This document shows, piece by piece, positions 10,118 through 37,839 of a stretch of 64,000 nt of DNA. Position 1 is the stretch's first letter, and each line of letters begins with the position of its first letter. The notes below the pieces were generated by a model. The model saw nothing but the letters and a program-made list of their open reading frames with translations, was not told the DNA's origin and did no database searches. Source of the DNA: Micromonospora cremea (GTDB lineage Bacteria > Actinomycetota > Actinomycetes > Mycobacteriales > Micromonosporaceae); contig NZ_FSQT01000001.1 of the NCBI RefSeq assembly GCF_900143515.1, positions 868,001-932,000 of the forward strand, read 5' to 3'. Made by a program: the position numbers and the translations under genes.

Positions 10118-10119
10118 CT

Positions 10120-21133: not shown

Positions 21134-21808
21134 TCAGACGCTCCTGTTCTTTACCTGGTAGGCGTGCGTCAGCGACTGGCCGTCGGGCAGGTGCATCTCC
21201 ATCTCGTACCTGGTCCCGTAGACGAACTCTCCGGTCAGCAACGGCAGGGTCCCGCAGAACATCACCGTGTCCGCCGTGAGCTTCGTGCCATTGGCCTCCA
21301 ACTTGCCGAGCAGCTGTTGGGGCGTCAGCATCGCCGCCAGGCGGCCCTGCTGGTACGGCTGGCGATCGGTTCGGCACGTCACGACGATTTCGTCCCATCG
21401 GTCTTCGATGGACACCAGCGGCACCACTGCGGCGCCCATCGGTTTGGGCGCCGCCGCCTTTGAGTTGGCGATGCTCTGGGTTTCGAGTTCGCGGTCCGTG
21501 TGGTCACTGCCAACACCGAGGTAGAAGCGCCCCCGGTGGAACACCAGAACCGGTTCCACCTCCCCAGAGGTCTTGTCACCGGCTACGTCGACGGAGGCGT
21601 CCGTCGTTAGGAGGTCAGCGTTCAGCTCGTAGAACATCGGGACGCGTGGTGGCGGTGTGACGCCGATGTGGGCCAGTTCGTCAATGTGCGCTTGGACCGC
21701 TTGGTGGTCGCGGCCGGTGTAGCCCGCCACGATGAGCCTGGGATCGGAGAGGTGGATCTGGTCGGCTGTGCCGGCGACTGTGAGAGTGATCAGGGGCGTG
21801 TCAGGCAC
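21134..21808 (-). CDS. DUF2848 family protein
   Basis: 224 aa from a GTG with AAGGGAAGGAC upstream. The sequence contains LIVAGYTGRDHQAVQAHIDE, SGEVEPVLVFHRGRFYLGVG, SIEDRWDEIVVTCRTDR and LTADTVMFCGTLPLLTGEFV. The pattern of a late, Gly- and metal-rich sheet recalls fumarylacetoacetase-like hydrolases, but that link is my inference; the family has no assigned reaction. It is last in the leftward operon after ALDH and a nitrilase-superfamily hydrolase. That position suits a hydrolase or decarboxylase acting late in degradation of an aromatic or amide compound. Confidence 0.8.
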   Translation of the reverse strand: MPDTPLITLTVAGTADQIHLSDPRLIVAGYTGRDHQAVQAHIDELAHIGVTPPPRVPMFYELNADLLTTDASVDVAGDKTSGEVEPVLVFHRGRFYLGVGSDHTDRELETQSIANSKAAAPKPMGAAVVPLVSIEDRWDEIVVTCRTDRQPYQQGRLAAMLTPQQLLGKLEANGTKLTADTVMFCGTLPLLTGEFVYGTRYEMEMHLPDGQSLTHAYQVKNRSV

Positions 21809-21854
21809 GAAATGTCCTTCCCTTTGGGTTCGTCTAGACGAGATGGAAAGCTGT

Positions 21855-22655
21855 TCAGCCGAAGGCCGCCTGATTGCGTAGCCGGCGGTCTTGAAGCACG
21901 GGGAACTCGTGCCGTATTTCCGTGACTGTGGCACGGTCGATCTCGGTGTACAGGACCTCCTCGCCGGAGCCTGCTTCGGCCAGCACGCGTCCCCAGGGAT
22001 CGACCACGACGCTGTGGCCGGCCAGCTCGACGTCGCCCTGCTTCCCGACGGCGTTGCAGGCCAGCAAGAACACCTGGTTCTCGACCGCACGGGTTCGGGT
22101 GAAGAGCTTCCAGTGCTCAAGGCGTGCGGCCGGCCAGGCGGCCGGCACGATGACGAGCTCTGCACCCTGGTCGACGAGGTGCCGGTACAGCTCCGGGAAG
22201 CGGAGGTCGTAGCAGGTCGTCATGCCGACCTGGCCGATGGCGGTGTCCGCCACGTCCGCCCGCTGACCGGCGCTGAGGAGTTTCGACTCGAGGGACTGAT
22301 AGCCGAAAACGTGGATCTTGCGGTAGTCCAACAGCACCTCACCGGTCGGATCGACGAGTACGGCGGTGTTGTGAAGGCGACCGGTTGGGTCCCGTTCGAG
22401 CACGCTGCCGGCGTGCAAGTGGGCCCCGATCGCTCGGGCCCAGCCCCTGATCGTGGAGAGGAGCGGTCCGTCGAGGTGCTGCGCAAGTTCGTCATAGCGG
22501 TCGAATGCGAAGTAGCCAGGGGCCCACAACTCCGGGAGGACCACCAGGTCGACGTCGGTGAGGCCGGCAACAAGGTCGCCGACACGCTCGATGCGACCTT
22601 CGACCGGCTCGTCCAAAGGGCTGGCGACCTGCACCAAGGCTGCTTTCATGACCAT
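21855..22655 (-). CDS. Carbon-nitrogen hydrolase (nitrilase superfamily)
   Basis: 266 aa. The catalytic triad is visible as E42 (LPELWAPG), K113 (YRKIHVFG) and C148 (TTCYDLRFPELYRHL). The sequence matches omega-amidase/carbamoyl-amidase-type members, which cleave linear amides or N-carbamoyl compounds to acid plus ammonia. A second in-frame ATG two codons later (22649) is equally possible given CGGAG upstream. It sits between ALDH and DUF2848 with short gaps, so it is part of the same catabolic operon and may release ammonia from a ring-opened product. Confidence 0.9.
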   Translation of the reverse strand: MVMKAALVQVASPLDEPVEGRIERVGDLVAGLTDVDLVVLPELWAPGYFAFDRYDELAQHLDGPLLSTIRGWARAIGAHLHAGSVLERDPTGRLHNTAVLVDPTGEVLLDYRKIHVFGYQSLESKLLSAGQRADVADTAIGQVGMTTCYDLRFPELYRHLVDQGAELVIVPAAWPAARLEHWKLFTRTRAVENQVFLLACNAVGKQGDVELAGHSVVVDPWGRVLAEAGSGEEVLYTEIDRATVTEIRHEFPVLQDRRLRNQAAFG

Positions 22656-22713
22656 CCACTCCGTTTGTCGTCGGCTGATCTCATCGGGAACACCGTTTCT
22701 TTGGCCCGCCGCG

Positions 22714-24207
22714 TCAGGCGGTGAGCTTCACGTGGACGCTCTTGGTCTGCAGGTAGCTCAACAGCTCCTCCATGCACTCCTCCCGTCCGAGGCCGCTGTT
22801 CTTCCATCCGCCGAAGGGCGTTCCCCAGTAGTGGGTCGTGCTGTCGTTGACCCAGACGTAACCCGCTTCCACGTCATCGGCGAGTCGGAGCGCGTTGCTC
22901 ACGTCATTCGTCCAGACGCTTGCGGTGAGTCCGTACTCGACGCTGTTCACGTCGCGCAACATCGTCGTGTAGTCGCTCCAGCGGAACACGGACACCACCG
23001 GACCGAAGACCTCCTCCTGCGCGATCCTCGAATGCGGCTCGACGTCGGTGAAGAGGGTCGGAGCGACGAAGAAGCCCTGTTGCGGAACACGGGGGTCGTC
23101 GAGTCCGCCCGAGATTAGGGTCGCGCCTTCCGCGGCCGCTCCCTTGATGAAGTCGCGTGTTCTGCCGGCATGACGGGCGTTGATCAGAGGGCCCATGTCG
23201 ACGGCGCGGTCGTAGGCGGGGCCCAGCGTCAGGGCGGAGAACTCACGGGCCAACGCCTCGACGAACGCGTCGTGCACGTCGGCGTGGACGAACAGCCGTG
23301 ACGTTGAGCCGCATGACTGGCCGGCGTTGGCGCGCAGATTCATCGCCTTCACGACCTCACGGGCGGTGCGCGCTACGTCAACGTCAGCGAAGACGATCAT
23401 TGGGTTCTTTCCGCCCAGTTCCAGCGACACCGATCGCACGGCCTGTTCGGCGGCACGGCGCTGGATGAGGCGGCCTGTCGCTGCGCTGCCGGTGAAACCG
23501 ATGCGGCGGACGTCAGGATGCGTCACCAGCGCGTCGCCGGTGTGCGCGTCGCCGGTGATGATGTTGAAGACTCCTGGAGGGAAGGTCTCCCGGACCAGGT
23601 CTCCGAGAAGCAGCGCCGACATGGGCGTTTGGTCGGCGACCTTCAGCACTACGGCGTTGCCCGCGGTGAGCGCTGCCAGGCTGCCTTTGACCGCGAACAG
23701 GAAAGGGTGGTTGTAGGCCACGATCTTGGCCACGACCCCGTACGGCTTGTAGCGCGTGTAGTGCAGGGTGTCATCGTCGGGCAGGACGTCACCTCGTAGC
23801 GCGCCCGCGAGCCCTGGCCAACCTCGCAGTGACCTCGTCGCCCCGGCGATATCGCCGAACATTCGCTGGATGGGCAGCCCGGCGTCGATCGCGTCCACCA
23901 CGGCGATCTCGTGGGCGCGGTTCTCGATGGCCAGCGCGAGGCGCTCGAAGCAGCGAGCTCGTTCACCGAGCGTCGTGCGCGCCCAGGTTCGCTGGGCGTC
24001 CCTGGCCGCGTCGACCGCGGCGGCCACGTCGACCGGACCGGCGACGGCGTAGCTGGCGAACTCGGTGCCGGTGGAAGGGTTCAGTGTGCGGCGCACGGCC
24101 CCGGAGGAGGGCGTGACCCACTCGTTGTCGATCAGCAGGCGCGGGGCCCGGGCCGCCAGCGAGTCAAAGACGGTCGAGAGTTCGGGGTGCTGCGTCGGGT
24201 CGTGCAT
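22714..24207 (-). CDS. NAD-dependent aldehyde dehydrogenase
   Basis: 497 aa from the ATG at 24207, preceded by GGAGAGGG; an upstream extension of the frame crosses the operator and is rejected. Active-site GQSCGSTSR holds the catalytic Cys, SLELGGKNPMIVF the general-base Glu, and FTGSAATGRLIQRR the NAD-binding turn. It begins the leftward operon. The divergent promoter carries a strong palindrome, so it is probably induced together with the importer operon on the other side. Confidence 0.92.
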   Translation of the reverse strand: MHDPTQHPELSTVFDSLAARAPRLLIDNEWVTPSSGAVRRTLNPSTGTEFASYAVAGPVDVAAAVDAARDAQRTWARTTLGERARCFERLALAIENRAHEIAVVDAIDAGLPIQRMFGDIAGATRSLRGWPGLAGALRGDVLPDDDTLHYTRYKPYGVVAKIVAYNHPFLFAVKGSLAALTAGNAVVLKVADQTPMSALLLGDLVRETFPPGVFNIITGDAHTGDALVTHPDVRRIGFTGSAATGRLIQRRAAEQAVRSVSLELGGKNPMIVFADVDVARTAREVVKAMNLRANAGQSCGSTSRLFVHADVHDAFVEALAREFSALTLGPAYDRAVDMGPLINARHAGRTRDFIKGAAAEGATLISGGLDDPRVPQQGFFVAPTLFTDVEPHSRIAQEEVFGPVVSVFRWSDYTTMLRDVNSVEYGLTASVWTNDVSNALRLADDVEAGYVWVNDSTTHYWGTPFGGWKNSGLGREECMEELLSYLQTKSVHVKLTA

Positions 24208-24292
24208 GCGTGCCCTCTCCGCCAGGACGTCGTACGGAGCGGGCCAGTGGGCCGGAAGTCCGTCGCGGCTGTATCCGCCGAAGTCCTTGACT

Positions 24293-24309
24293 CTAGGTAC
24301 CGTACCTAG
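24293..24309. promoter_or_regulatory. Palindromic operator in the divergent catabolic promoter
   Basis: CTAGGTAC-C-GTACCTAG is a perfect inverted repeat of 8-bp arms, placed 84 bases before the ALDH start and 35 bases before the start of the rightward operon. It probably overlaps one or both promoters. The same TTAATCTAGGTA sequence recurs at 33683 before the third operon. The nearby MarR gene (32669) is a candidate binder. Confidence 0.7.
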
Positions 24310-24343
24310 ATTAACTAAATCACAACCGACCGAGGAGCGCGAG

Positions 24344-25261
24344 ATGCGACTGGCTGTTCCCGACCTGATCTCGAACTCGTACTTTCCTGCCGTTGCGGCG
24401 GTGGAGCTTGGTCTCATGCGCGAGGAAGGCCTCGACGTCACGTTGGAGCTGCTCTTCCCGGTCACCGACGCGGCCGCCGCGCTGCGCGATGGCGAGATCG
24501 ACTTCCTGGCTGGTGCCGCGCATGCGCCGCTGTACGACGTGCGAGCGTGGGACGACACGACGCTCGTCGCCGCGCTGTCGAGCAACATGTACTGGTACCT
24601 CGTCGTGGCGGCGGACTCGCCCATTGACGCCGGCTCGTGGACATCGCTGCGCGACGTGCGGATCGGCGCGGCGCCCGGCCCTGACACAGGTCTCCGCCAG
24701 CTCCTGGTCGATGCCGGCCTCGATCTCGACGAGGCTCGGATCGACATCGCTCCGGTTCCGGGCGCTGACGCCCCCAGCGTTTCGTTCGGCGTCACCGCCG
24801 CACAGGCGCTCGAGCAAGGCCGCATCGACGCGTTCTGGGCCAACGGCATGGGCGCCGAGGTCGCGGTTCGCGACGGCATCGGCAAGATCATCTTCGACGC
24901 ACGGCGCTGCGACGGCGAAGCCGCTGGCTTCACGTTCCCTGCCCTCATGACGTCGCGGAGGCTGGCTGCCACGTCGCCAGAGGTCGTGTCCGCCGCCGTC
25001 CGCGCGATCGTCCGCGCACAGCGGGCCCTCCGGAAGGATCCGTCTCTGGCCGAGAAGGTCGCCGACGGCCTCTTCCCGCCAATGGAGACAGGGCTGATCG
25101 CGAACCTCGTAGAGCGAGACCTTCCCTTCTACAACCCCGCCATCAACGACAGCGCCGTTGCGAGCCTGCGGGACTTCGCGTGCCGCGCTGCCCTGCCAGG
25201 GGCCGGGGGCTCCTTCGTGCGAGCGGTCGCTAGGGAGTTCGCCCCCCTGTGGTCCTCATGA
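24344..25261 (+). CDS. NMT1/THI5-like substrate-binding protein without signal peptide
   Basis: 305 aa from an ATG with CGAGGAG upstream. It begins MRLAVPDLISNSYFPAVAAV and continues LGLMREEGLDVTLEL, the usual start of the mature NMT1/SsuA-type ligand-binding fold; EIDFLAGAAHAPLYDVR and ALEQGRIDAFWANG follow. No signal peptide or lipobox precedes it, and the operator and promoter immediately upstream leave no room for one. It could be a cytoplasmic ligand sensor, an enzyme of THI5-like type or a protein that lost its leader. First gene of the rightward operon. Confidence 0.82.
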   Translation: MRLAVPDLISNSYFPAVAAVELGLMREEGLDVTLELLFPVTDAAAALRDGEIDFLAGAAHAPLYDVRAWDDTTLVAALSSNMYWYLVVAADSPIDAGSWTSLRDVRIGAAPGPDTGLRQLLVDAGLDLDEARIDIAPVPGADAPSVSFGVTAAQALEQGRIDAFWANGMGAEVAVRDGIGKIIFDARRCDGEAAGFTFPALMTSRRLAATSPEVVSAAVRAIVRAQRALRKDPSLAEKVADGLFPPMETGLIANLVERDLPFYNPAINDSAVASLRDFACRAALPGAGGSFVRAVAREFAPLWSS

Positions 25262-25328
25262 GGAGGCACCGCGCTGCTCCGCGGCGTTCCTGACCATCAC
25301 CCACCGTAGATAAGGCCGAGAGGAAGAC

Positions 25329-25673
25329 ATGCCGAAGCCCGAGCTGGAGTTCGTCTCCATTGAAAAGACCGCGTTCACACCGTGTGAGGGCGTGGTACCC
25401 CAGCTGACCGAAAGAGTCCTCGCCCGCGACCCGGAGCGCGGCGTGGCGACGCGGATCCTCCGCTTCGAGCCGCAGACGGACACGACGCCGAACGGTGTGC
25501 AGTCTCATGACTTCTGGGAGGAGGTCTACATCCTGGAGGGCTCCATCACGGACCTGCGGTTGGGGCAGACGTTCACCGCAGGGGACTACGCGTGTCGCCC
25601 GCCCGGCATGAAGCACGGCCCGTGGAAGTCCGAGGAGGGCTGCCTCACCTTTGAGGTCAGGTACGAGGCGTGA
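25329..25673 (+). CDS. Single-domain cupin protein
   Basis: 114 aa. ATRILRFEPQTDTTPNGVQS then HDFWEEVYILEGSITDLRLG is cupin motif 1 with His and two Glu candidates, and GDYACRPPGMKHGPW is motif 2 with the second His. It is likely to bind a metal and act on a small molecule of the pathway, as isomerase, dioxygenase or sensor. It is the second gene of the operon; 159 bases with a possible second promoter follow. Confidence 0.85.
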   Translation: MPKPELEFVSIEKTAFTPCEGVVPQLTERVLARDPERGVATRILRFEPQTDTTPNGVQSHDFWEEVYILEGSITDLRLGQTFTAGDYACRPPGMKHGPWKSEEGCLTFEVRYEA

Positions 25674-25831: not shown

Positions 25832-26845
25832 ATGAAGCTGAGAGCCGTCCCCCGCCTCGCAGCTGTCTTCGCCATCAGCGCGGCCACGATGCTCAGTGGA
25901 TGCAGCGCTGGATCCGGCAAGGGCAGCGCGTCGAACGGCACCACCTGGAAGGTGGGTGTCATGCCCTGTACCAGCGACTGCGGCTTCTTGCGCATGGCGC
26001 AGGCAAAGGGCTTTTACAAGGAGCAGGGCGTCAACGTCGAGTTCGTCGAGCTCAAGAGCGCGGAGCAGGTCTACCCGGCGCTGGCTTCCGGCGAGGTGGA
26101 CGCCATCGAGCAGAGCCCCGGCGGACTCTACATCGCCGCGCAGCAAGGAGGTCTCAACGCAAAGGTGATTGGTTCCTCAATGGAGGGCAACCCTTTCGCG
26201 ATCTTCGCTAACAAGAAGTACGACTCGATTTCGGACCTCAAGGGCAAGAGTGTGGGCATCTCGTCGCCGACAGGACTTCCAGCCCTCGTTGCCAAGCTGA
26301 TGCTGAAAGACGCCGGCGTCGACTGGACGTCGGTCCAGAAGGTGAACGCGGGCGGCAACCCCGACCGGTACCGGGCGGTGGTGGCGGGCACGGTCGACGC
26401 GACGGCCGACGCCACGGACTACGTCCCCCGGGCCGAGAAGGACGGCGTGAACGTCCTCGGCCTTTCCGCCGACATCATCCCCGACTATCCGCGCTACATG
26501 ATCATCGCTCGCGAGGACAGCCTCAAGAAGAAGGACGACCTGGCCACGGGGTACCTGGCGGGCCTAATCGAGGGTCTGCGGTACGCGTACGACCACCCGG
26601 ACGAGGCCAGGAAGATCTCCGCGGAGGCGCTGAAGGTGAGCCCGGACGACCCCATGGTCACGTTCACCCACGACGTCATCGTCGAGAAGAAGCTGGTCGA
26701 TCCCGACGCCGGCATCGACATGAAAAAGCTCGAGTACCTGGAAAAGGTGCTGCAGGAGTCCGGTGATCTCAAGAAGTCGATCGATGTGAAGTCCCTCGTC
26801 GATGACTCGTACCAGCAAGCCGCGCTGAAGCGTTTGGAGGACTGA
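25832..26845 (+). CDS. ABC transporter substrate-binding lipoprotein (NMT1/SsuA type)
   Basis: 337 aa. MKLRAVPRLAAVFAISAATM then LSGC is a lipoprotein signal peptide, with C24 as lipidation site. The mature part has TWKVGVMPCTSDCGFLRMAQ, EQGVNVEFVELKSAEQVYPA and KSVGISSPTGLPALVAKLM, typical of NMT1/THI5-like binding proteins for thiamine precursors, sulfonates and aromatic carboxylates. It precedes its ATPase by four bases. Together the three genes form a complete importer whose ligand is probably the substrate of the surrounding catabolic enzymes. Confidence 0.92.
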   Translation: MKLRAVPRLAAVFAISAATMLSGCSAGSGKGSASNGTTWKVGVMPCTSDCGFLRMAQAKGFYKEQGVNVEFVELKSAEQVYPALASGEVDAIEQSPGGLYIAAQQGGLNAKVIGSSMEGNPFAIFANKKYDSISDLKGKSVGISSPTGLPALVAKLMLKDAGVDWTSVQKVNAGGNPDRYRAVVAGTVDATADATDYVPRAEKDGVNVLGLSADIIPDYPRYMIIAREDSLKKKDDLATGYLAGLIEGLRYAYDHPDEARKISAEALKVSPDDPMVTFTHDVIVEKKLVDPDAGIDMKKLEYLEKVLQESGDLKKSIDVKSLVDDSYQQAALKRLED

Positions 26846-26849
26846 AGCC

Positions 26850-27755
26850 ATGCAGGCAAGCAGCACCGCCGGGAAGACGCAGGCGAGCCCTCCGACGACT
26901 CCACCGGCCCAGTCGCAGCCGAGGGTCGTCATCGACAGCGTCTCCAAGGACTTCACCGTCTCGGATCGCAAGGGAAGTCAGCCTCTGAAGGCCCTGGACC
27001 GAGTGTCGTTGTCGATCAACGACGGCGAGATCGTCGCCCTGACCGGCTTGAGCGGCTGCGGCAAGACCACCTTGCTGCGCATCATCATGGGGTTGGAGCG
27101 GGCGACCAGCGGCACCGTGACCGTGGGCGACAAAGTGGTCACTGGATGCGGTTTTGACCGCGGTCTGGTGTTCCAGCACGCCGAGCTCTTCCCGTGGCGG
27201 ACGGCCCTTCAGAATGTGGAGTTCGGGCTCGAGGTGAAGGGCGTGCCGAAGGCGGAGCGTCGCCGAATCGCCCGCGAGAAGCTCGAACTCGTGGGCCTGG
27301 GCGCCGCGATGGACAGGCGTCCCAACCAGCTTTCCGGTGGCATGAAGCAGCGTGTCGGTCTGGCCCGGGCGCTCAGCATTGAACCGCAAGTGCTCCTCAT
27401 GGACGAGCCCTTCGGAGCGCTCGACGCGCAGACTCGCGAGGGTCTTCAGCTCGAGGTGCTGCGCGTTCACCGCGAGACCGGCAAGACAATCATCTTCGTC
27501 ACGCACGACCTGGACGAAGCCGTTCTGCTCGCGGACCGGGTCGTGCTGATGTCGCCGAACCCGGGCCGCGTGGATCACATCTTCGACATTCCGATCTCCG
27601 GGCCGCGCGAGGACCTGTTCGCGATCCGCGGTCTCGACGAGTTCGCCCACACGAGGTACGAGATCTGGCGCCGGCTCATGGCGCGGGTCCACGAGAACAG
27701 TGAAGCCGCGCACGGCATCGACCCGCAGGGCCGCGATCGAGGAGGAGACCGATGA
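26850..27755 (+). CDS. ABC transporter ATP-binding protein (SsuB/NrtD-like)
   Basis: 301 aa. Walker A LSGCGKTTLL, signature LSGGMKQRVGLARAL and Walker B VLLMDEPFGALDAQTRE are all intact. ELFPWRTALQNVEFGLEVKG is the Q-loop region of nitrate/sulfonate/taurine-type importers. The stop overlaps the ATG of the permease (ATGA), which indicates translational coupling. Confidence 0.94.
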   Translation: MQASSTAGKTQASPPTTPPAQSQPRVVIDSVSKDFTVSDRKGSQPLKALDRVSLSINDGEIVALTGLSGCGKTTLLRIIMGLERATSGTVTVGDKVVTGCGFDRGLVFQHAELFPWRTALQNVEFGLEVKGVPKAERRRIAREKLELVGLGAAMDRRPNQLSGGMKQRVGLARALSIEPQVLLMDEPFGALDAQTREGLQLEVLRVHRETGKTIIFVTHDLDEAVLLADRVVLMSPNPGRVDHIFDIPISGPREDLFAIRGLDEFAHTRYEIWRRLMARVHENSEAAHGIDPQGRDRGGDR

Positions 27756-28606
27756 CTTCCCTAGCGCAGAAACGCACTTCCACCCGTCAGGGACCGGACC
27801 CCACCGCTGTCGCGAAGCGGCGCCGGGTCCTGCGCGGCCGACACACCTACACGCTGGTGACCATCGCCTCCCTGTTGGTCCTGCTCGTGGCGTGGGAGAT
27901 CTTCGGGCGACGGATGAACCCCATCTTCGCCTCGTACCCGACGGCCATCGCCGTCTCGTTCCGCGACCAACTCGCCGACGGGACGCTCTTCACGGCACTG
28001 CTCGACAGCCTCAAGCCGCTGCTACTCGGCTACCTGATCGCTGCTGTCGCAGGCATCCCCGTCGGCCTGCTGTTGGGCCGGTACCGGGCCGTCGAGGCAG
28101 CCCTCGGCATCTACGTGACGGGCGGCTACGCCATGCCGATGGTGGCGTTCATCCCCCTGCTGATCCTCTGGTTCGGACTCGGCTTCGCCGTCAAGGTGGC
28201 GGTGGTCGTAGTCATGACGGTCTTCCCAATCGTGATCAGTACGTGGGCGGGGGTCAACGCCGTCTCCAAGCCCCTCCTCGAGGTCGGTAAGTCCTTCATG
28301 GCCAGCGAGACCGCCATCATGCGGAAGATCATCCTGCCCGCGACAGTGCCTCACATCATGACGGGTCTGCGCCTGGGTATCGGACGCGCTGTCATCGGCA
28401 TCGTGATCGCCGAGTTCTTCACCTCGATCGGTGGCCTCGGCGGCTTGATCATCAACGCGGGCCAGCGGTTTGACACGTCAGCGCTGTTCGTCCCGGTCGT
28501 CGTCCTGATGGTGCTCGGCATCGGCCTGACGCGGGGGGTCGGCTGGCTGGAGTCGCGGGTTGCCCCTTGGTACGCCGGCGTCAGCGGCGGGCGGGACCCG
28601 GAGTGA
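27752..28606 (+). CDS. ABC transporter permease (SsuC/ThiX-like)
   Basis: 284 aa with about six transmembrane segments; a first helix at about 30-50 (LVTIASLLVLLVAWEIFG). The EAA-like cytoplasmic loop lies at EVGKSFMASETAIMRKIILP, followed by ATVPHIMTGLRLGIGRAVIG. Completes the importer with the preceding ATPase and lipoprotein. Its stop overlaps the GTG start of the amidohydrolase. Confidence 0.93.
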   Translation: MTSLAQKRTSTRQGPDPTAVAKRRRVLRGRHTYTLVTIASLLVLLVAWEIFGRRMNPIFASYPTAIAVSFRDQLADGTLFTALLDSLKPLLLGYLIAAVAGIPVGLLLGRYRAVEAALGIYVTGGYAMPMVAFIPLLILWFGLGFAVKVAVVVVMTVFPIVISTWAGVNAVSKPLLEVGKSFMASETAIMRKIILPATVPHIMTGLRLGIGRAVIGIVIAEFFTSIGGLGGLIINAGQRFDTSALFVPVVVLMVLGIGLTRGVGWLESRVAPWYAGVSGGRDPE

Positions 28607-29364: not shown

Positions 29365-29365
29365 C

Positions 29366-30568
29366 ATGGGGCACGTGATCGTCGTCGGTGGGGGACCGGT
29401 CGGTGTCGTCGCCGCCCTCGCCGCTGCACGAAGCGGCTTCGAGGTAACCGTGCTGGAGGCTGCGGAGCAGGTCCAGGACGACCCGCGAGCCTCCACCCTG
29501 CACCCCTCGACCCTCGAGATGCTCGACGACCTGGGCCTGGTCGACGAGTTGATCAGCGTCGGTCTGGTCGCCCGTCACTTCGACTTCTGGGACAAGCCGA
29601 GCCGGAGTCTCGTTGCACGGCTCGACCACGACGTCCTGCGTCACGAGACGAGGTTCCCCTTCGTCGTACAGACCGAGCAGCACAAGCTCGCCCGCATCGG
29701 CCTGCACAGGCTCGCGGAGATGCCGAATGTCGAAGTGCGGCTAGGGTGCACGTTCACGAGTCTGGAGCAGTCTGCCGACTCTGTCGTCGTCCATGCGCAG
29801 ACCGCCGACGGGCCGGTCCGGCTTACGGGCGACTGGGTCATCGGGTGCGACGGCGGCCGCAGCGCCGTTCGCAAGGGGCTCGGCATCGAGTTCGAGGGCT
29901 ACACCTGGCCGGAGCGGTTCGTGGTGCTGACCTCCCTCTTCGACTTCGCCGATGCCATGTCCTGCAGCTACCGCAGCTACTTCGCGGATCCGTCCGAGTG
30001 GTCCAACCTGTTCAAGGTCGCAGGCGAGGACCTGAAGGGGCGCTGGCGGGTGGTGCTTCCCACATCAGTCGGGGAGTCCGACGAACAGGCCCTGAGCGAC
30101 GAGGCGTCCATGCAGCGGCTCGAGCGCATTTGCCCCGGCGCGTCGCAGGGGGAGATCGTGCACCGCAAGATCTACCGGGTGCATCAGCGCGTGGCGGCCC
30201 AGTTCAGGGTAGGCCGGGCCTTCCTCGCCGGCGATGCGGCCCACGTGAACAACCCGATCGGCGGCCTCGGGCTCAATTGCGGAATCCACGACGCCGTCGA
30301 GCTCCTCGAGGCGTTGGACGACTTCCGCGGCTCCCGAAACGAGGACGTGCTCGACGCCTACGAACGCCGCCGGCGGGACCTCAACATCCGCTATGTGCAG
30401 CAGCAGACTGTGAGCAACAAGAAGCGGCTCGAGGAGAAGGACCCGGTCGTGCGAGCCCAGCGGCTCGACGAGCTACGTGCCATCGCGAGCAGCGAGGAGT
30501 CGCAGCGGGTGTTCCTGCGCAGGACATCCTTGCTCGAGAGCGTGCGAGAGCCGCACGCCAGCGCATGA
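29366..30568 (+). CDS. FAD-dependent aromatic monooxygenase (PHBH family)
   Basis: 400 aa. The ATG at 29366 is preferred over a GTG at 29357. VIVVGGGPVGVVAALAAARS is the GxGxxG ADP-binding motif, VIGCDGGRSAVRKGLGIEF the DG motif and AFLAGDAAHVNNPIGGLGLN the GD motif, giving a complete class A flavoprotein hydroxylase. No C-terminal thioredoxin-like domain. It should hydroxylate an electron-rich aromatic or heteroaromatic ring using NAD(P)H and O2. It is placed between the amidohydrolase and the MFS gene, whose ATG overlaps its stop. Confidence 0.92.
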   Translation: MGHVIVVGGGPVGVVAALAAARSGFEVTVLEAAEQVQDDPRASTLHPSTLEMLDDLGLVDELISVGLVARHFDFWDKPSRSLVARLDHDVLRHETRFPFVVQTEQHKLARIGLHRLAEMPNVEVRLGCTFTSLEQSADSVVVHAQTADGPVRLTGDWVIGCDGGRSAVRKGLGIEFEGYTWPERFVVLTSLFDFADAMSCSYRSYFADPSEWSNLFKVAGEDLKGRWRVVLPTSVGESDEQALSDEASMQRLERICPGASQGEIVHRKIYRVHQRVAAQFRVGRAFLAGDAAHVNNPIGGLGLNCGIHDAVELLEALDDFRGSRNEDVLDAYERRRRDLNIRYVQQQTVSNKKRLEEKDPVVRAQRLDELRAIASSEESQRVFLRRTSLLESVREPHASA

Positions 30569-31812
30569 GAGGGCACGGCGGCACTCCGTCGACCGCCTAT
30601 GAGCCGCTCCTCGCCGGATACCTCGCGCTGGGGATGGGGGTCGGTCCGCTGACGCACTATGCCTTGAGTGCGCTGGGTCCCTTGGTCGTCTCCGACCTCG
30701 GGTTGTCGGCGACCGAGTTCGGCGGCCTCTGGCTTGTCGCCTTCGGTACGGCGGCCGCCTGCACCCCCGGATTCGGGCGGCTCACCGACCACCTCGGTGC
30801 CCAACGGATGCTTCGGCTCACCTTCGTCTGTGCGGGGGCGGCCATGGTGGCCGTGAGCATGTCGCACTCGCTGGTCCCACTGGTGCTCGGCGTGGGTCTC
30901 GCCGGCATGGCGGTCGCCAGCTCCAACCCTGCGACGAACCTCGCGGTGGCCGGCTCGGTGACCGTCGGGCGACAAGGGCTCGTCGTGGGAGCGAAGCAGT
31001 CAGGGGTGCAGGCAAGCCAACTGCTGGCAGGTCTCGCCCTCCCAGGACTTGCCGTGGTGCTCGGCTGGCGCGTGGCGATTCTGCTCTGTGGGGCGTTGGC
31101 GGTCCTCGGGTTCGCGGCCACCCGATGGGTCGTGGGCCCCGCGGCTCCACGCGCCGCGCGAGCCGGCGCCCCCCGTGCGGCCATGGACCCCAGCGTGTGG
31201 TGGTTGGCCACCTACGCGCTGGTGACCGGTGCCGTCATCCAGGCGACGAACGTCTACCTGCCGCTCTATGCCCACGACGTGCTCGGCCACTCGGTGAGCG
31301 AGGCCGGGCTGGTCTCGGCCACGCTCGGCGGGACCGGCGTGCTGGCACGCCTTGTGTGGGGGCGGGTGATGGACCGCATCCTCGATACGCCGTCGCTCCT
31401 GACCGGGTTGGCGGTCCTGGCGGGCGTGGGCTTGGCGGTATGCGGTCTCGCCGCCGCCGTCAGTGACCTGATGGTCTGGCTGGGTGCCGCGATCTTCGGA
31501 GCGAGTGCCTTGGCTGCGAACGTCGTGATCATGATGACGGTGGTGCGCACCGCGCCCAGTGGCTCGGTAGGCCGCGCCACCGGTTGGACCTCACTGGGGC
31601 TCTATGCCGGCTTCATGGTCGGGCCGCTCACTTTCGGCATGTTCGTCGACTCGGCGGCCGGCTACCGCGGCGCGTGGTCGTACCTGTGCGCACTGACCGT
31701 AATCCTCGTCGTCATCACGGCCTGCTGGAAGCAGTTCGGTAGGCACGCCGATGACGCCAGTGGGTCCGAGGCCGCCCGGGCCGGCGCCGGCGGTGCGCGA
31801 GGACCTGGCTAG
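30565..31812 (+). CDS. MFS transporter
   Basis: 415 aa, start codon overlapping the monooxygenase stop (ATGA). Twelve hydrophobic helices; FGRLTDHLGAQRMLRLTF is the loop 2-3 MFS signature and LVWGRVMDRILDTPSLL its C-half counterpart. VVGAKQSGVQASQLLAGLAL recalls the cyanate/aromatic-acid branch. It may import an alternative form of the substrate or export an intermediate. Confidence 0.9.
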   Translation: MRGHGGTPSTAYEPLLAGYLALGMGVGPLTHYALSALGPLVVSDLGLSATEFGGLWLVAFGTAAACTPGFGRLTDHLGAQRMLRLTFVCAGAAMVAVSMSHSLVPLVLGVGLAGMAVASSNPATNLAVAGSVTVGRQGLVVGAKQSGVQASQLLAGLALPGLAVVLGWRVAILLCGALAVLGFAATRWVVGPAAPRAARAGAPRAAMDPSVWWLATYALVTGAVIQATNVYLPLYAHDVLGHSVSEAGLVSATLGGTGVLARLVWGRVMDRILDTPSLLTGLAVLAGVGLAVCGLAAAVSDLMVWLGAAIFGASALAANVVIMMTVVRTAPSGSVGRATGWTSLGLYAGFMVGPLTFGMFVDSAAGYRGAWSYLCALTVILVVITACWKQFGRHADDASGSEAARAGAGGARGPG

Positions 31813-31860: not shown

Positions 31861-32517
31861 GTGAGCGCAGCAGTACTTCTCGCGGTCCTCCGCCCGAAGG
31901 CCGACGACGTGGACGACTTTTTCACGTGGTACGAGGCCGAGCACGTCACCGGACGACTGGCGATGCCGGGCTTTCTCGACGCCCATAGGTACGTCTCTGA
32001 AGACGATCACGACATGGGTTTGGTGATCTACGACCTCGCGAGTCTGGATGTGCTGAGCACGGAGGCGTACCGAGCCCTGCAGGCCAGGACGGCCGCGACC
32101 ACGCAGACGCGGATGGGGGGACTGGACCAGTTTGTCAGGGTCACGGGGGAAGTCATCCAGGAGCACGGCGACGTCGCCGCTGCGGTACCCCTGCTCTTCG
32201 TCGTGGCGTTCTCGGCACCGCGGAGCGACCTGGACGACCTCGACGCGTGGTACCGCGAGGAACACGCACCCATGCTCCTCAAGGCCGCGGCCTGGCGCGG
32301 GGTCAGCCTGGTCGATGTGACGGGATCCAACACTCCGTGGACCCGGGTGGCGATCCACCGGCTCGCCGATGCGTCTGCGCTCGAATCGCCGGAGCGCCGT
32401 GCAGCGGGGGAGGCGCCGCGGCGACAGCAGCTTGCTGCCCGACCCTGGTTCAACGCCGGCACCCGCTACAGAGTCAGGGCCGTGGATCGTCTGGACTCCG
32501 CCTCGAGGCGTCGCTAG
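31861..32517 (+). CDS. EthD-like protein with two dimeric alpha/beta-barrel repeats
   Basis: 218 aa from a GTG with AAGGAG upstream. Two similar halves are seen: DDVDDFFTWYEAEHVTGRLA with PGFLDAHRYV, and SDLDDLDAWYREEHAPMLLK with AAWRGVSLVDV. The W-Y-x-x-E-H pattern is that of EthD/DUF4286-type ferredoxin-like folds, which form heme-free or metal-free barrels around hydrophobic ligands. Last gene of the operon; role could be a cyclase, isomerase or binding protein for an aromatic intermediate. Confidence 0.75.
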   Translation: MSAAVLLAVLRPKADDVDDFFTWYEAEHVTGRLAMPGFLDAHRYVSEDDHDMGLVIYDLASLDVLSTEAYRALQARTAATTQTRMGGLDQFVRVTGEVIQEHGDVAAAVPLLFVVAFSAPRSDLDDLDAWYREEHAPMLLKAAAWRGVSLVDVTGSNTPWTRVAIHRLADASALESPERRAAGEAPRRQQLAARPWFNAGTRYRVRAVDRLDSASRRR

Positions 32518-32632: not shown

Positions 32633-32668
32633 ACCGACCGGCCACGATTTAGAAGCGTAGGTATAGCT

Positions 32669-33274
32669 GTGGCTCGTCGAACAGTACGGAACCCAGGGCG
32701 CGTAGGCCGCGGCGTCGCCGCCACCATCTCCGCGCTCAGGGGCGGCCCTGGCGGAACCCCCGCCGAGGTGGATGCCTACTTCGAGGGTGTCGCACGCGCT
32801 CGCTACATCATCCGGCGCACCTTCCGGATCTTCGACGAGGTGGCCCGCAACTCGGACCTCGAGCCGCTTCAGCACCAGGCGCTCATCCAGATCCTCGGTG
32901 GCGGCGTCACCGAGGGAGCCCTCCCCGTGAGCCGGATCGCCGAGCGCCTCAACGTCACGAGTGCCTTCGCGTCGCGACTCGTCCAAGACCTCGAGGCCAA
33001 GGAGTTGGTCGTCCGGCGTCCCTCGGAAGTGGACCGCCGGGTCATCCTGGTGGAGGCGACTGCGCACGGTCGCCGGTGCCTCACGACGGTGTCCGACGGC
33101 GTCCGGCGCGACGTGGCCTACTTCCAGTCGCACTTGACGGAGGAAGACCGCGCGGCTGCCCTGACCGTCATGGCGTTCTACGTCGGCGTGCCGCTCAACG
33201 ACGACGACCTGGAGTCCATCAGGAGCCTCGTCCAGTCGGCCATCCACGCACAGCGAGAGGCGGCCGCGAGATGA
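32669..33274 (+). CDS. MarR family transcriptional regulator
   Basis: 201 aa from a GTG. The winged helix reads LPVSRIAERLNVTSAFASRL then VQDLEAKELVVRRPSEVDRR, with the DxR wing typical of MarR. An N-terminal arginine-rich extension of about 35 residues precedes the domain. It lies inside the catabolic locus between two operons, so it is the leading candidate for the regulator binding CTAGGTAC-type sites. Its own promoter holds a different palindrome. Confidence 0.9.
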   Translation: MARRTVRNPGRVGRGVAATISALRGGPGGTPAEVDAYFEGVARARYIIRRTFRIFDEVARNSDLEPLQHQALIQILGGGVTEGALPVSRIAERLNVTSAFASRLVQDLEAKELVVRRPSEVDRRVILVEATAHGRRCLTTVSDGVRRDVAYFQSHLTEEDRAAALTVMAFYVGVPLNDDDLESIRSLVQSAIHAQREAAAR

Positions 33275-33635: not shown

Positions 33636-33682
33636 CACCTATTTCGCCGCTCCTCACCTCTTGACCCTCCTCATCCAGATAC

Positions 33683-33704
33683 TTAATCTAGGTAACGTAC
33701 AAAG
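33683..33704. promoter_or_regulatory. Relative of the CTAGGTAC operator
   Basis: TTAATCTAGGTAACGTACAAAG shares its first 12 bases and the internal GTAC with the palindrome at 24293 read on the minus strand. The right arm is degenerate (ACAAAG instead of ACCTAG). It lies 30 bases before the FAD monooxygenase start. Confidence 0.55.
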
Positions 33705-33733
33705 GTCAGTGATTTCCTCCATAGGAGCGCTGG

Positions 33734-35002
33734 ATGACCCATGCAACGAAGGACACCGAGGTTCTGATCGTCGGTGCAGGAGCGGGTGGCCTGATCCTCG
33801 CCCTCAGCCTCAAAGAGATCGGCATACAGTGCCGCGTGTACGACGCGGTGCCCGAGCTGACGGCCGTGGGTGTCGGTATCAACCTGCTTCCCCACGCCGT
33901 TCGTGAACTCGACGAACTCGGCCTGGTGCCGGCGCTTGACGAAGTCGGTATCCGCACCAAGGACGCGTCCTACTACAACCGGTTCGGCCAGCACATCTTC
34001 ACCGAGCCCGCAGGCGAAGCGGCCGGCTACCCGTGGCCGCAGTTCTCTCTACACCGCGGTGACATGCAGATGGTGTTCCTGAACGCCGTGCGCGAGCGGC
34101 TCGGCGAGGACAGCGTCGTCACCGGTCACCGACTCACCCACGTCGACCTCGGTGACGACACGGTCACCGCCCACTTCATCGGGCCGAACGGCGAGGACCT
34201 TCCCTCTGTCCGCGCCTCGGTCCTTGTCGGAGCCGACGGCATCAAGTCCGCGCTGCGCAAGCAGTTCTATCCGGACGAGGGCGACCCCCTCTACTCCGGC
34301 CTCACCATCTGGCGCGGCGCGACCCCCATGCCGCCCTTCCTGAGCGGAGCCAACACCGTCCGCATGGGCTGGATGAGCGTCGGCAAGCTCATGGTGTACC
34401 CGATCAGGAACAACATCGATGGCCAGGGCAACCAGCTGATGAACTTCGTCGCGACCCTGGAGCGGCCCCGACCCGACTTGTACGACTGGAACGCCAAGGG
34501 CAGGCTCGAGGACTTCTTCCCAACCTTCAAGGACTGGCACTTCGACTTCCTCGACGTGCCTGGCATGCTCCAGAAGACCGACCCGATCCTGATCTACCCC
34601 ATGGTGGACCGCGACCCACTTCCCACGTGGACCTTCGGTCGCGCGACGTTGCTGGGTGACGCCGCCCACCCGATGTACCCGCGAGGCTCCAACGGCGCAG
34701 GCCAGGCGATCCTCGACGCACGGATCCTCGCCGGCAGCTTCAAGCGCCATGGCGTGACCGACGAGGCACTCCACGAGTACGACGTCACGCGTGTCGAGGC
34801 GACGGGCAAAGTCGTCCGCATGAACCGGGCCAACCCGCCAGACGCCATCCTGCGCGAGGTGCACGAGCGCAGCGGTGACAAGCCGTTCGAGCGCCTGAGC
34901 GACATCGTCTCCGACGAGGAACTGCGTGCGATCACGGAGCGGTACAAGACCGTCGCGGGCTTCCAGGTCGACCAGCTCAAGCGGAGGCGGTCGCTCGTAT
35001 GA
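33734..35002 (+). CDS. FAD-dependent monooxygenase (PhzS/salicylate hydroxylase-like)
   Basis: 422 aa with ATAGGAG before the ATG. VLIVGAGAGGLILALSLKEI is the dinucleotide motif, LVGADGIKSALRKQFYP the DG motif and ATLLGDAAHPMYPRGSNGAG the GD motif. The phrase MYPRGSNGAGQAILDAR is typical of the flavin monooxygenase group that includes the phenazine hydroxylase PhzS. It heads the third operon, coupled by a four-base overlap to the DapA-like gene. It is unlike the PHBH-type enzyme at 29366, so two successive hydroxylations are plausible. Confidence 0.92.
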   Translation: MTHATKDTEVLIVGAGAGGLILALSLKEIGIQCRVYDAVPELTAVGVGINLLPHAVRELDELGLVPALDEVGIRTKDASYYNRFGQHIFTEPAGEAAGYPWPQFSLHRGDMQMVFLNAVRERLGEDSVVTGHRLTHVDLGDDTVTAHFIGPNGEDLPSVRASVLVGADGIKSALRKQFYPDEGDPLYSGLTIWRGATPMPPFLSGANTVRMGWMSVGKLMVYPIRNNIDGQGNQLMNFVATLERPRPDLYDWNAKGRLEDFFPTFKDWHFDFLDVPGMLQKTDPILIYPMVDRDPLPTWTFGRATLLGDAAHPMYPRGSNGAGQAILDARILAGSFKRHGVTDEALHEYDVTRVEATGKVVRMNRANPPDAILREVHERSGDKPFERLSDIVSDEELRAITERYKTVAGFQVDQLKRRRSLV

Positions 35003-35916
35003 CAAGCACCGTCATGACCATCCCCGGTCTCGTGGTTCCCCCGCTGACTCCGTTCACCGCAGAGCTGACCGTGGACTACGACGCGCTGAAGCACGGTGTC
35101 GACTACGTGGTGAAAGACTGTGACGCTGCCATGGTGATCGCGGCGGGCGTCGAGGCGCAGGAGTACCAGTACCTCGACCTCCCGCAGCGGCGGGAGCTGA
35201 TCCGCAAAACGATCGAGTTCGTCGATGGGCGCCGACCGGTCGTGGTCGGCGTCTCCCACCCGTCGTTCAAAGTCAGCATCGACCTCACTCACTTCGCAGA
35301 GGAGCTGGGCGCAAGCGCCGTGCAACTGCTGGCGCCGCTTCGGCCCTTCGGCGGCGAGCCTTCACCCCGGGATCTGGAGCGCTACGTCGACGCCGTGGCC
35401 GGCGAGACATCGCTGCCGCTCATGCTCTACCTCAACGCCGGAGCCGGAGCCACCGTGTCCCCCGAAGCGACCATCGCGCTCGCGAGCCGGGACAGCATCG
35501 GGTTCGTCAAGGAGAGTTCACGCGATCTCTCAAGAGTGTCGCGGCTGATCGAAGAAATTGACCAGGCCGGCCTGGCGCACTACTTCACCACCGTGCAGAT
35601 GATGCTGATCAGCCTTCAGCTCGGCGGATCCGGTGTGACGCTGCCGCCGCCCGCCGCGAAGATCGCATCGCTGATCCTGCAGTCGTTCCTCAAGGGCGAC
35701 GTTGCCGAGGCGGTACGGCTACAACGGCAGTTCTCGCTGTATCCGGCGAAGTGGATGCGATACGGCCTGACACCAACGATGAAGGCGTCGCTGAATCTTC
35801 TGGGCGTGCCAGCCGGTGCCCCGTACCCGCCGTACTCGCCGGTGACCGGAGAGGACCTCGACGACCTGCGTGCCTTCCTCACGACGACCGACCTAGAGAT
35901 AGTGGAGGAACTCTGA
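34999..35916 (+). CDS. DapA-like (dihydrodipicolinate synthase family) aldolase
   Basis: 305 aa. K171 (SIGFVKESSRD) should form the Schiff base and Y144 (LPLMLYLNAGA) is the family's tyrosine; VVPPLTPFTAELTVDYDAL is the usual start. The lysine-biosynthesis signature around the first loop is absent, so it is probably a catabolic pyruvate-dependent aldolase or hydratase-aldolase that splits a ring-opened product. Start overlaps the monooxygenase stop; its own stop overlaps the next ATG (TGATG). Confidence 0.9.
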   Translation: MTSTVMTIPGLVVPPLTPFTAELTVDYDALKHGVDYVVKDCDAAMVIAAGVEAQEYQYLDLPQRRELIRKTIEFVDGRRPVVVGVSHPSFKVSIDLTHFAEELGASAVQLLAPLRPFGGEPSPRDLERYVDAVAGETSLPLMLYLNAGAGATVSPEATIALASRDSIGFVKESSRDLSRVSRLIEEIDQAGLAHYFTTVQMMLISLQLGGSGVTLPPPAAKIASLILQSFLKGDVAEAVRLQRQFSLYPAKWMRYGLTPTMKASLNLLGVPAGAPYPPYSPVTGEDLDDLRAFLTTTDLEIVEEL

Positions 35917-36350
35917 TGCTGACCGTCATCAGGCTCGGACGAGACGACGCCGCCGTACTCGTGGAGGGCGCGCGTCAGGCCGCCGTCGACCTGGGCATCC
36001 CGATGAGCATCGCGGTGACCGACGAAAGCGGACACCTGATCATGTTCGAGCAGATGGACGGCGCCAAGGTGAGCAGCATCGCCACCGCGATCGACAAGGC
36101 CTTCACCGGTGCCGCCGCTCGCAAGGGGACCCATATCTACAACCAGCTCTGTGTCCCCGGGGAGCCGACCTTCGGCATCCACAACACGAACGGCGGTCGT
36201 TTCTCCGTGATCGGCGGTGGACTCCCCGTCGTCGTCGACGACCAGGTGGTCGGCGGCATCGGCATCAGCTCCGGAACCGCGGGGGAGGACCTCGAGGTGG
36301 CCCAGGCTGCCGTCAACCACTTCATGAAGTTCCATGCCGACCGTGGTTGA
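35916..36350 (+). CDS. GlcG/HbpS family protein
   Basis: 144 aa. AAVDLGIPMSIAVTDESGHL, MDGAKVSSIATAIDKAFTGA and VVGGIGISSGTAGEDLEVAQ are the three conserved blocks of the GlcG/HbpS fold (PF03928). Members bind heme or cobalamin or accompany catabolic enzymes without known activity. There is no secretion signal, so a cytosolic accessory or chaperone role in the pathway is likely. Confidence 0.88.
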   Translation: MLTVIRLGRDDAAVLVEGARQAAVDLGIPMSIAVTDESGHLIMFEQMDGAKVSSIATAIDKAFTGAAARKGTHIYNQLCVPGEPTFGIHNTNGGRFSVIGGGLPVVVDDQVVGGIGISSGTAGEDLEVAQAAVNHFMKFHADRG

Positions 36351-37839
36351 GAGCCCCGGGACCCAGCACTTAGTGGACGGTACCGCAGAGGCGAAGCGCC
36401 TCCTTCTGTCCTCCGTGCCCACCGGGTCGTTCATCGGCGGACAGTGGGTGAGCACGGACGCCACGTTCGATGTGCGGAATCCTTCCACGGGCCAACCGCT
36501 CGCGGCAGTGACCGACGCCGGTCCGGCCCACGGCATGGATGCCCTGGCCGCGGCGTCGCGAGCGCAGGACCGCTGGGCCGCCGTTCCACCACGGACCCGG
36601 GGCGAGATCCTGCTCCGGGTGCACGACCTGCTCCATAAGCGGGCCGACGACTTCGCCATGCTCATGGCACTGGAGATGGGAAAGACCATCTCCGAGGCCC
36701 GGGGGGAGGTCGGCTACGGCGCCGAGTTCTTCCGGTGGTTCTCCGAGGAGGCCGTCCGCGTCGGTGGCGGATATTCGCAGTCGCCCACGGGCGGCAGTCG
36801 GATCCTCACCATACGCCAGCCGGTCGGGCCGGTTCTCGCCATCACGCCGTGGAACTTCCCGCTCGCCATGGGCGCTCGCAAGATCGCGCCCGCGTTGGCA
36901 GCCGGATGCACCGTTGTGGTCAAGCCCTCCGAGCTCGCACCGTTGACCACTCTTGCGTTGGCGCAGGTCCTCGTCGAGGCCGGCGTGCCCGACGGCGTGG
37001 TCAACGTCGTGACAACCAGCCGGGCCGGCGGTGTCGCCGAGCCGCTCATTCGGGATCAGCGCCTGCGTAAGTTGACGTTCACCGGCTCAACTGCTGTCGG
37101 CAAGCGCCTGATCGCCCAGTCAGCAGACTCCGTGCTGCGCGTGTCCATGGAGCTGGGAGGAAACGCCCCGTTCATCGTCTTCGACGATGTCGACCTGGAC
37201 GCTGCGGTGGAAGGTGCCCTTCTCGCCAAGATGCGCAACGGCGGCCAAGCCTGTACTGCGGCGAACCGCTTCCTCGTGCACGAGGCCGTCGTCGAGCAGT
37301 TCTCGCAGCGCCTAGCCGACCGAATGAGCGCTCTCCTCGTCGGATCAGCGACCGACGAGGAGACGCAGGCCGGCCCACTGGTCAGCGAGGCCGCGGTGCG
37401 GAAGGTGGAGCGGCTGGTCTCCGACGCGGCGACGGAGGGAGCCCGGGTTCTGACCGGGGGCTGCCGACTCGAGAGTGAAGGCTTCTTCTACGCGCCGACC
37501 GTGCTGATCGATGTGCCGGTCGACGCACGGCTGCAGTCGGAGGAGATCTTCGGTCCGGTCGCTCCGATCACCAGCTTTTCCGACGACGAGCAGGCAACAG
37601 CTCTTGCCAACGACACACAGTATGGCCTCGCCGCCTACATCTTCACCCGCGACCTGAATAAAGCGATCCGGCTGGCTGAGCGGCTTGAAACGGGAATGGT
37701 CGGTATCAACCAGGGAGTGATCTCCAACCCGGCCGCGCCGTTCGGTGGTATGAAGGCGTCGGGCCTCGGTAGAGAGGGTGGAACCCAGGGAATCGAGGAA
37801 TATCTCGAGAGCAAGTACGTGGGAATCGCCTTTTCCTAG
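36334..37839 (+). CDS. Succinate-semialdehyde dehydrogenase-type aldehyde dehydrogenase
   Basis: 501 aa; the ATG overlaps the previous gene by 17 bases. Catalytic GGQACTAANRF, Glu motif SMELGGNAPFIVF and NAD-binding FTGSTAVGKRLIAQ are all intact. LTIRQPVGPVLAITPWNFPL and the final PFGGMKASGLGREGG place it in the GabD-like group. As the last gene of the third operon it could oxidise the semialdehyde released by the aldolase to a dicarboxylate for central metabolism. Confidence 0.92.
   Translation: MPTVVESPGTQHLVDGTAEAKRLLLSSVPTGSFIGGQWVSTDATFDVRNPSTGQPLAAVTDAGPAHGMDALAAASRAQDRWAAVPPRTRGEILLRVHDLLHKRADDFAMLMALEMGKTISEARGEVGYGAEFFRWFSEEAVRVGGGYSQSPTGGSRILTIRQPVGPVLAITPWNFPLAMGARKIAPALAAGCTVVVKPSELAPLTTLALAQVLVEAGVPDGVVNVVTTSRAGGVAEPLIRDQRLRKLTFTGSTAVGKRLIAQSADSVLRVSMELGGNAPFIVFDDVDLDAAVEGALLAKMRNGGQACTAANRFLVHEAVVEQFSQRLADRMSALLVGSATDEETQAGPLVSEAAVRKVERLVSDAATEGARVLTGGCRLESEGFFYAPTVLIDVPVDARLQSEEIFGPVAPITSFSDDEQATALANDTQYGLAAYIFTRDLNKAIRLAERLETGMVGINQGVISNPAAPFGGMKASGLGREGGTQGIEEYLESKYVGIAFS

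Follow-up and report, generated by a model that had tools for sequence, protein, structure and literature searches.

A 17-kb accessory locus of Micromonospora cremea with a possible role in N-heteroaromatic acid breakdown, and a predicted cytosolic binding-protein-fold partner of its FAD hydroxylase

The window analysed here, a stretch of 64,000 nucleotides from Micromonospora cremea, contains at 21134-37839 a locus of 17 intact genes. With a confidence a little above even, we read it as a horizontally acquired two-module catabolic island, through which a hydroxylated N-heteroaromatic acid would be taken up and catabolised. The most interesting part of the locus is sbp1, a protein with the periplasmic binding protein (PBP) fold which, judged from its sequence, stays in the cytosol as a partner of fad1, a flavin adenine dinucleotide (FAD) hydroxylase. 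New here are the predicted cytosolic location of sbp1, the alternation of sbp1 with an enamidase-like amidohydrolase around fad1, and the fumarylacetoacetase (FAH) fold of DUF2848.

A seventeen-gene accessory locus

The clustering of the 17 genes is more than chance, because the locus is colinear in Aeromicrobium terrae and its core recurs in nine further loci. A. terrae has all 17 genes, with order and orientation preserved, at 58-85% identity (73% on average), so the search for the same set in other actinomycetes that the original prediction had proposed was successful. The core (fad1, sbp1, cupin, DUF2848 and CN hydrolase) is present together in nine more actinobacterial loci from five more genera: Georgenia, Streptomyces sp. 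SBT349, Actinomadura (three), Amycolatopsis (three) and Pseudonocardia. The three importer genes accompany it in eight of these nine loci, the isochorismatase-fold gene in two and aldehyde dehydrogenase 1 (ALDH1) in one; fad2, DapA and HbpS are found in none.

The 17-gene set is accessory. Amongst 160 genomes of the same genus, fad1 (E<=1e-120) and DapA (E<=1e-60) were each detected in the window's own genome and in none of the other 159, and at E<=1e-50 DapA was again confined to that genome among 394 drawn from the class. We take the locus to be of horizontal origin. To its right lie an alpha/beta hydrolase (39879-40973, minus strand), an M14 zinc carboxypeptidase (42216-43889) and a second accessory cluster at 44131-51573, comprising an ELFV amino-acid dehydrogenase, an acyl-CoA dehydrogenase, a fused E1-type dehydrogenase of 738 amino acids, an ATP-binding cassette (ABC) ATPase, an SBP_bac_3 protein and a permease. 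The M14 peptidase and the ELFV dehydrogenase were each found in one of the 160 genomes at E<=1e-150, again the window's own. Since both are as rare as fad1, and LtrA, to the left of the locus, is commoner (32/160 at E<=1e-100), the accessory region probably extends beyond the 17 kb. Beyond the accessory region on its right, a DDE-type transposase at 52524-53633 is a possible island border. Also on the left is a GH127 beta-L-arabinofuranosidase with a LamG-like domain (16649-19696).

Families were assigned with Pfam and NCBIfam, for which 40 frames of the window were scanned. Domain limits, upstream bases and homologs served to place the gene starts; among the longest open frames, several begin too early, and matches that were scored on such a longer frame are marked in the list.

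21134-21808, minus: DUF2848 protein, 224 amino acids, FAH fold (E83xE85)
21855-22649, minus: CN-hydrolase amidase (PF00795, E=1.7e-55; PDB 1f89, 2w1v and 3p8k, the best solved matches including nitrilase homolog 2; E40, K111, C146)
22714-24207, minus: ALDH1, betaine/aminobutyraldehyde dehydrogenase-like (PF00171, E=3.2e-143, longer frame; best NCBIfam scores below the curated cut-offs)
24344-25261, plus: sbp1, predicted cytosolic NMT1/PBP-fold protein without export signal
25329-25673, plus: small ChrR-type cupin, 114 amino acids (PF12973, E=3.5e-11)
25832-26845, plus: NMT1-type lipoprotein of the ABC importer (PF09084, E=2.2e-29; lipobox LSGC)
26850-27755, plus: ABC importer ATPase (PF00005, E=2.2e-31)
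27752-28606, plus: ABC importer permease (PF00528, E=6.8e-26)
28603-29364, plus: isochorismatase-fold amidohydrolase, nearest to N-carbamoylsarcosine amidohydrolase (PF00857, E=4.1e-33; D43, K146, C179)
29366-30568, plus: fad1, FAD hydroxylase 1, group A flavoprotein monooxygenase (PF01494, E=2.7e-58)
30565-31812, plus: major facilitator superfamily (MFS) transporter (PF07690, E=1e-32, longer frame)
31861-32517, plus: EthD/DUF4286-like barrel protein (from its homologs' matches)
32669-33274, plus: MarR-family regulator (PF12802, E=2.7e-11)
33734-35002, plus: module II, fad2, FAD hydroxylase 2 (PF01494, E=2.6e-20; NF005720, 544 bits, cut-off 400)
34999-35916, plus: module II, DapA-type lyase (PF00701, E=2.3e-32; FVKES motif)
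35916-36350, plus: module II, HbpS/GlcG-like protein (PF03928, E=9.5e-33, longer frame)
36334-37839, plus: module II, ALDH2, succinate-semialdehyde type (PF00171, E=1.1e-165; TIGR01780, 554 bits, below the cut-off of 646)

Every family named in the original prediction was recovered at its place and strand, the EthD-like barrel by way of a homolog. Gene spacing points to three transcription units, as had also been proposed: neighbours within a unit are separated by -17 to 158 bp, the divergent units are 136 bp apart, and 459 bp lie 5' of fad2. The residues that we take to be catalytic in the hydrolases, dehydrogenases and flavoenzymes are present, including the Cys and Glu motifs of the aldehyde dehydrogenases and the FAD motifs, and the Schiff-base lysine of the DapA-type lyase is presumably that of FVKES. 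The EthD-like protein has no Pfam match at E<=0.001. Its homolog on the Mariluticola plasmid (locus L090) matches DUF4286 (1.3e-8) and EthD (1.6e-5); the window protein is 64% identical to the L009 homolog and 26-37% identical to the other EthD-type matches in fad1 loci.

DUF2848 has the FAH fold together with the metal-binding acidic residues of that family, and the cupin residues H60, E64, E65 and H96 are present in 16 of 16 aligned rows, the window's included. The isochorismatase-fold protein matches PDB 26st (104 bits) and 3ot4/3uao (90 bits), 3uao being a maleamate amidohydrolase. The importer is of the NMT1 type, with a lipoprotein bearing a lipobox and an adjacent ATPase and permease (spacing 4 and -4 bp). 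The lipoprotein is nearest, weakly, to thiamin- and pyrimidine-binding proteins (PDB 4nmy, 45 bits; 3ix1, 35 bits).

fad1, sbp1 and the enamidase-like partner

Both fad1 and fad2 are group A flavoprotein monooxygenases, with a FAD_binding_3 domain and the GxGxxG, DG and GD motifs. The solved chains nearest to fad1 are PnpA (6ain, 208 bits), the p-nitrophenol enzyme, and then HspB (7da9, 191 bits). An alignment of 18 fad1 relatives was used to scan the genome collection. It found 266 relatives, and the neighbourhoods of the best 80 were read for up to 10 kb on each side (both flanks reach 8 kb or more in just 46 of them), a neighbour being called at 60 bits or more. An enamidase-like amidohydrolase is present in 38 of these 80 loci and sbp1 in 30, with both in two. 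The enamidase-type loci commonly contain an EthD-like gene (33/38) and DUF1185 (35/38), and the sbp1-type loci the cupin (18/30) and DUF2848 (16/30). Of the 80 loci, 56 encode one or more of four amide hydrolase kinds, the enamidase-like kind being joined by CN hydrolases (11 loci) and amidase-signature amidases (7). Molybdenum hydroxylase genes of the xanthine dehydrogenase type, the query for which was identified by Pfam, are present in 14. Seven loci of paralogous FAD hydroxylases from the window's own genome, a weak control at 3.5-4.1 kb with about 1.5 kb on each side, gave matches to fad1 or fad2 only.

Clean examples of the enamidase type are found on two annotated plasmids. That of Mariluticola halotolerans includes an annotated NAD-dependent succinate-semialdehyde dehydrogenase (SSADH) gene, and its amidohydrolase matches enamidase (2vun) at E=2e-105; that of Agrobacterium vitis includes an NMT1-type importer. 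A metal-binding motif was readable in 30 of 32 members of the enamidase-like family, as QxH in 20 and HxH in 10, so the metal site may differ within one family. DUF1185 occurs in 35 of the 80 loci, and the window's 17 proteins gave neither an amidohydrolase nor a DUF1185 match in Pfam. Structures of DUF1185 proteins have been published (PMC2954203), and a member from a coumarin cluster is likened to TgnF of trigonelline breakdown (PMC7913881).

The sets centred on fad1 are spread over actinobacteria, several proteobacterial classes, Acidobacteria and small-genome actinobacteria, and include assemblies of 1.0-1.7 Mb (60-100% complete) and plasmids of Proteobacteria. What recurs around fad1 in several phyla, with changing composition, is module I, comprising fad1, sbp1, the cupin, DUF2848, the amide hydrolases and the ABC importer. 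A smaller version, with a double CN hydrolase, sbp1, fad1, DUF1330 and an aldehyde dehydrogenase, was found in all four small-genome loci that were read (five had a match). In one of these actinobacteria (locus L102), two look-alike proteins without a family, at 6173-6952 and 14282-15079, flank the fad1-sbp1 set. A link to chlorophyll or bilin catabolites was considered for them and rejected: the protein at 14282-15079 matched RCC_reductase below threshold (E=0.017), the other copy had no match, and no PDB relative came up.

The original prediction named a dedicated NMT1-type ABC importer, to which the lipoprotein at 25832, the ATPase and the permease belong. sbp1, at 24344-25261, appears not to be part of it: a lipobox was sought in it and none found, unlike in the lipoprotein, and the export signal of periplasmic substrate-binding proteins is absent. 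In 28 of 28 members (the window and 27 of the 30 loci) an ATG, GTG or TTG stands no more than 13 codons from a conserved PD, leaving no room for a signal peptide, ten of these rows having a longer upstream frame open. The role of binding protein for the importer was rejected on these grounds and because all three importer genes are present in just 12 of the 30 loci that bear sbp1. From its sequence, therefore, sbp1 is predicted to be a cytosolic PBP-fold protein and not an importer part. In fold it matches Thi5, DszB and MqnD, cytosolic PBP-fold proteins that are enzymes; in sbp1 itself, conserved positions were identified. A decarboxylase role of the kind that 4,5-dihydroxyphthalate decarboxylase has was also considered for sbp1; no entry of that enzyme came up in the searches, which excludes nothing.

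In raw counts, enamidase and sbp1 alternate strongly (Fisher p 1.3e-10 for 87 rows, and 1.2e-9 for the 62 rows that have 5 kb or more on both flanks). In a maximum-likelihood phylogeny of 87 fad1 proteins, the branches with good support require the enamidase label to have changed 11 times or more and the sbp1 label 10 times or more. The pattern suggests, short of proof, that the two partner sets are functionally equivalent. We put forward, tentatively and as the less probable outcome, that sbp1 is an enzyme or essential ring-opening partner acting on the fad1 product, repeatedly exchanged with the enamidase module in the aerobic breakdown of the same N-heteroaromatic in several phyla. Counting against it, phylogenetically independent pairs are not significant (median p 0.25; 8 pairs on starred branches of a quick tree, with means of 3.7 opposite, 0.4 the same and 3.9 without difference), and His60 of sbp1 is replaced in two loci (L077, L088). 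The sbp1 relatives there (L077 11359-12282; L088 15442-16362) are divergent, at 36-37% identity, and also lack the usual PD; a second fad1 paralog is near that of L077. If the proposal were true, sbp1 would represent a new catalytic function for the binding-protein fold, one obscured in databases by the label 'ABC transporter substrate-binding protein' amid thousands of relatives. The family gave 7985 matches among 7999 scored candidates, and the sources name these as transporter parts.

Proposed pathway and competing readings

The NMT1-type importer, perhaps together with the MFS transporter, would import a small N-heteroaromatic that probably carries carboxyl and hydroxyl groups. fad1 would then add a hydroxyl, most likely in para or ipso position to one already present, which is the reaction type of its nearest characterised relatives. 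The oxidised ring might then be opened and processed by sbp1, the cupin and the FAH-fold DUF2848 in a gentisate-like logic, ie ring cleavage followed by hydrolysis of an acylpyruvate type. The CN hydrolase and the isochorismatase-type amidase could release the nitrogen, and ALDH1 could oxidise a semialdehyde. Module II would supply a second branch of hydroxylation, C-C cleavage and oxidation, which may act on the same family of substrates. We infer the substrate class, the order of steps, the identity of the ring opener and the joint action of the two modules. In the original prediction every step was covered; ring opening is the step without a certain enzyme. It is possible that fad1 is itself the ring opener, and there was no MHPCO-type ring-opening monooxygenase entry among the best 60 of its 128 PDB matches.

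An N-heteroaromatic is the likeliest substrate class, because enamidase-like partners occur in 38 of the 80 loci, because HspB is the second nearest solved relative of fad1, and because fad2 is nearest to 2rgj/3c96 (282 bits), the phenazine enzyme PhzS, and then to 6-hydroxynicotinate 3-monooxygenase (5eow, 107 bits). The recurrent amide hydrolases and molybdenum hydroxylase genes also argue for such an acid and, more weakly, so does the resemblance of the lipoprotein to thiamin- and pyrimidine-binding proteins.

A number of observations weigh on the other side. Neither enamidase nor sbp1 is found in 14 of the 80 loci, and 24 are without any of the four amide hydrolases; many of these are short contigs, and the figure is 11 of 46 where at least 8 kb was available on both sides. 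Genes like the isochorismatase and ALDH1 are present in five and two of the 80, respectively. The molybdenum hydroxylases are common and may be bystanders. Neither the cupin nor DUF2848 occurs in any of the 38 enamidase-type loci, and the gentisate-like logic therefore does not hold for every fad1 locus. PnpA and the rifampin monooxygenases, which are related to fad1, act on compounds in which the target is not an N-heterocycle. Finally, DUF2848, cupin, lipoprotein and sbp1 are consecutive at 9500-12500 of a locus from another genome of the class (L105, genome G289) which has no ATPase or permease there and no fad1 in the 19 kb read, an arrangement due to a deletion or an assembly fault.

The third operon (fad2, DapA, HbpS and ALDH2) is its own module, because it is rarely near fad1, because fad2-DapA-HbpS stands alone on a Salipiger plasmid, and because DapA is rare in the class. 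DapA and HbpS accompany fad1 in one of the 80 loci, that of Aeromicrobium, and fad2-like genes in three, which again tells against a joint pathway. On the plasmid of Salipiger abyssi (L092), fad2-DapA-HbpS precedes a DUF4286 gene, and the 25 kb that were read contain no fad1; at 23307-24882 of the same locus a gene annotated as an MqnA/MqnD/SBP family protein adjoins an FAD-dependent oxidoreductase. The strongest competitor, only somewhat short of an even chance, is that modules I and II are unrelated catabolic operons with different substrates, their appearance as a single pathway being accidental. The 459-bp gap 5' of fad2 and the nine core loci without fad2, DapA and HbpS fit this explanation. 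It is opposed by the colinearity of all 17 genes in A. terrae, and by the DUF4286/EthD gene of the Salipiger copy, a partner kind that fad1 has also. Where both modules occur, module II may serve the same substrate as module I. Of the complete degradation pathway that was predicted, a catabolic locus with an importer, amide hydrolases, flavin hydroxylases and dehydrogenases is supported; that the 17 kb form a single complete pathway has only partial support.

It is rather unlikely that the locus acts on an aryl amide or on a hydroxyaromatic acid without nitrogen, with the amide hydrolases merely stripping a side-chain amide. The closeness of fad1 to PnpA is in its favour, as is the joint presence of FAD hydroxylase, cupin and FAH fold, a combination familiar from the gentisate-type degradation of benzenoid acids. 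Against this, fad1 repeatedly has amide hydrolases of unrelated families nearby, one of them related to enamidase, which acts on 6-oxo-1,4,5,6-tetrahydronicotinate (PMC7356986), and fad2 matches 6-hydroxynicotinate 3-monooxygenase.

A diverged lower pathway for nicotinate or nicotine through 2,5-dihydroxypyridine, of the HspB or NicC type, is less probable again. The HspB and 3ot4/3uao scores, the SSADH-like ALDH2 and the alpha/beta hydrolase just outside the locus would suit it. Enzymes of this route belong to recognisable families, and no Pfam match suggesting 2,5-dihydroxypyridine dioxygenase, N-formylmaleamate deformylase or maleate isomerase was seen among the 17 proteins, the rest of the genome not having been searched; in this respect the locus differs from the nicotinate set, as originally noted. 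In addition, the recurrent neighbours of fad1 homologs are enamidase, DUF1185 and EthD, or else sbp1. A natural-product tailoring cluster, for which the actinobacterial host might speak and in which FAD hydroxylases and MFS exporters are common, is very improbable, given the dedicated importer, two aldehyde dehydrogenases and amide hydrolases, the lack of polyketide synthase or nonribosomal peptide synthetase among the 40 frames, and the occurrence of fad1 sets in very small assemblies and on Proteobacteria plasmids.

Since the sets centred on fad1 are so widely distributed, they may act on a common natural compound for whose breakdown we found no assigned genes. From this locus, DUF2848, the partner families DUF1185 and DUF4286 and a large family of predicted cytosolic PBP-fold proteins would each gain a function that can be tested.

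Comparison with known systems

No published description or assignment of the window's gene set was found in the open-access literature, in line with the earlier suggestion of an undescribed system. HspB and PnpA share the group A FAD hydroxylase fold and motifs with fad1, at moderate scores which are too low to establish orthology, and the partners of fad1 are the enamidase/DUF1185/EthD or the sbp1 sets. An HspB-type enzyme converts 6-hydroxy-3-succinoylpyridine to 2,5-dihydroxypyridine (PMC4108407); a dioxygenase for that product is not indicated at the locus. DUF2848 is 12-20% identical, in the FAH rows, to the fumarylpyruvate and maleylpyruvate hydrolases of its family.

The nearest published logic to the enamidase-type fad1 loci that we found is the kpi cluster for 4-hydroxypyridine in Arthrobacter sp. 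IN13, in which, according to PMC7356986, a FAD hydroxylase is followed by a ring-opening enzyme of the amidohydrolase superfamily and a hydrolase. KpiC is 28% identical to enamidase in the same source, compared with E=2e-105 for the Mariluticola fad1 partner. There is no PF01979 protein among the 17 of the window, which is thus set apart from the kpi cluster by family content, the kpi sequences themselves not having been compared. The enamidase family is found in 38 of the 80 fad1 loci; the window has sbp1, cupin and DUF2848 instead. For fad2 the nearest solved relatives are 2rgj/3c96 and 5eow, from which it differs by its neighbours, a DapA-type lyase and HbpS.

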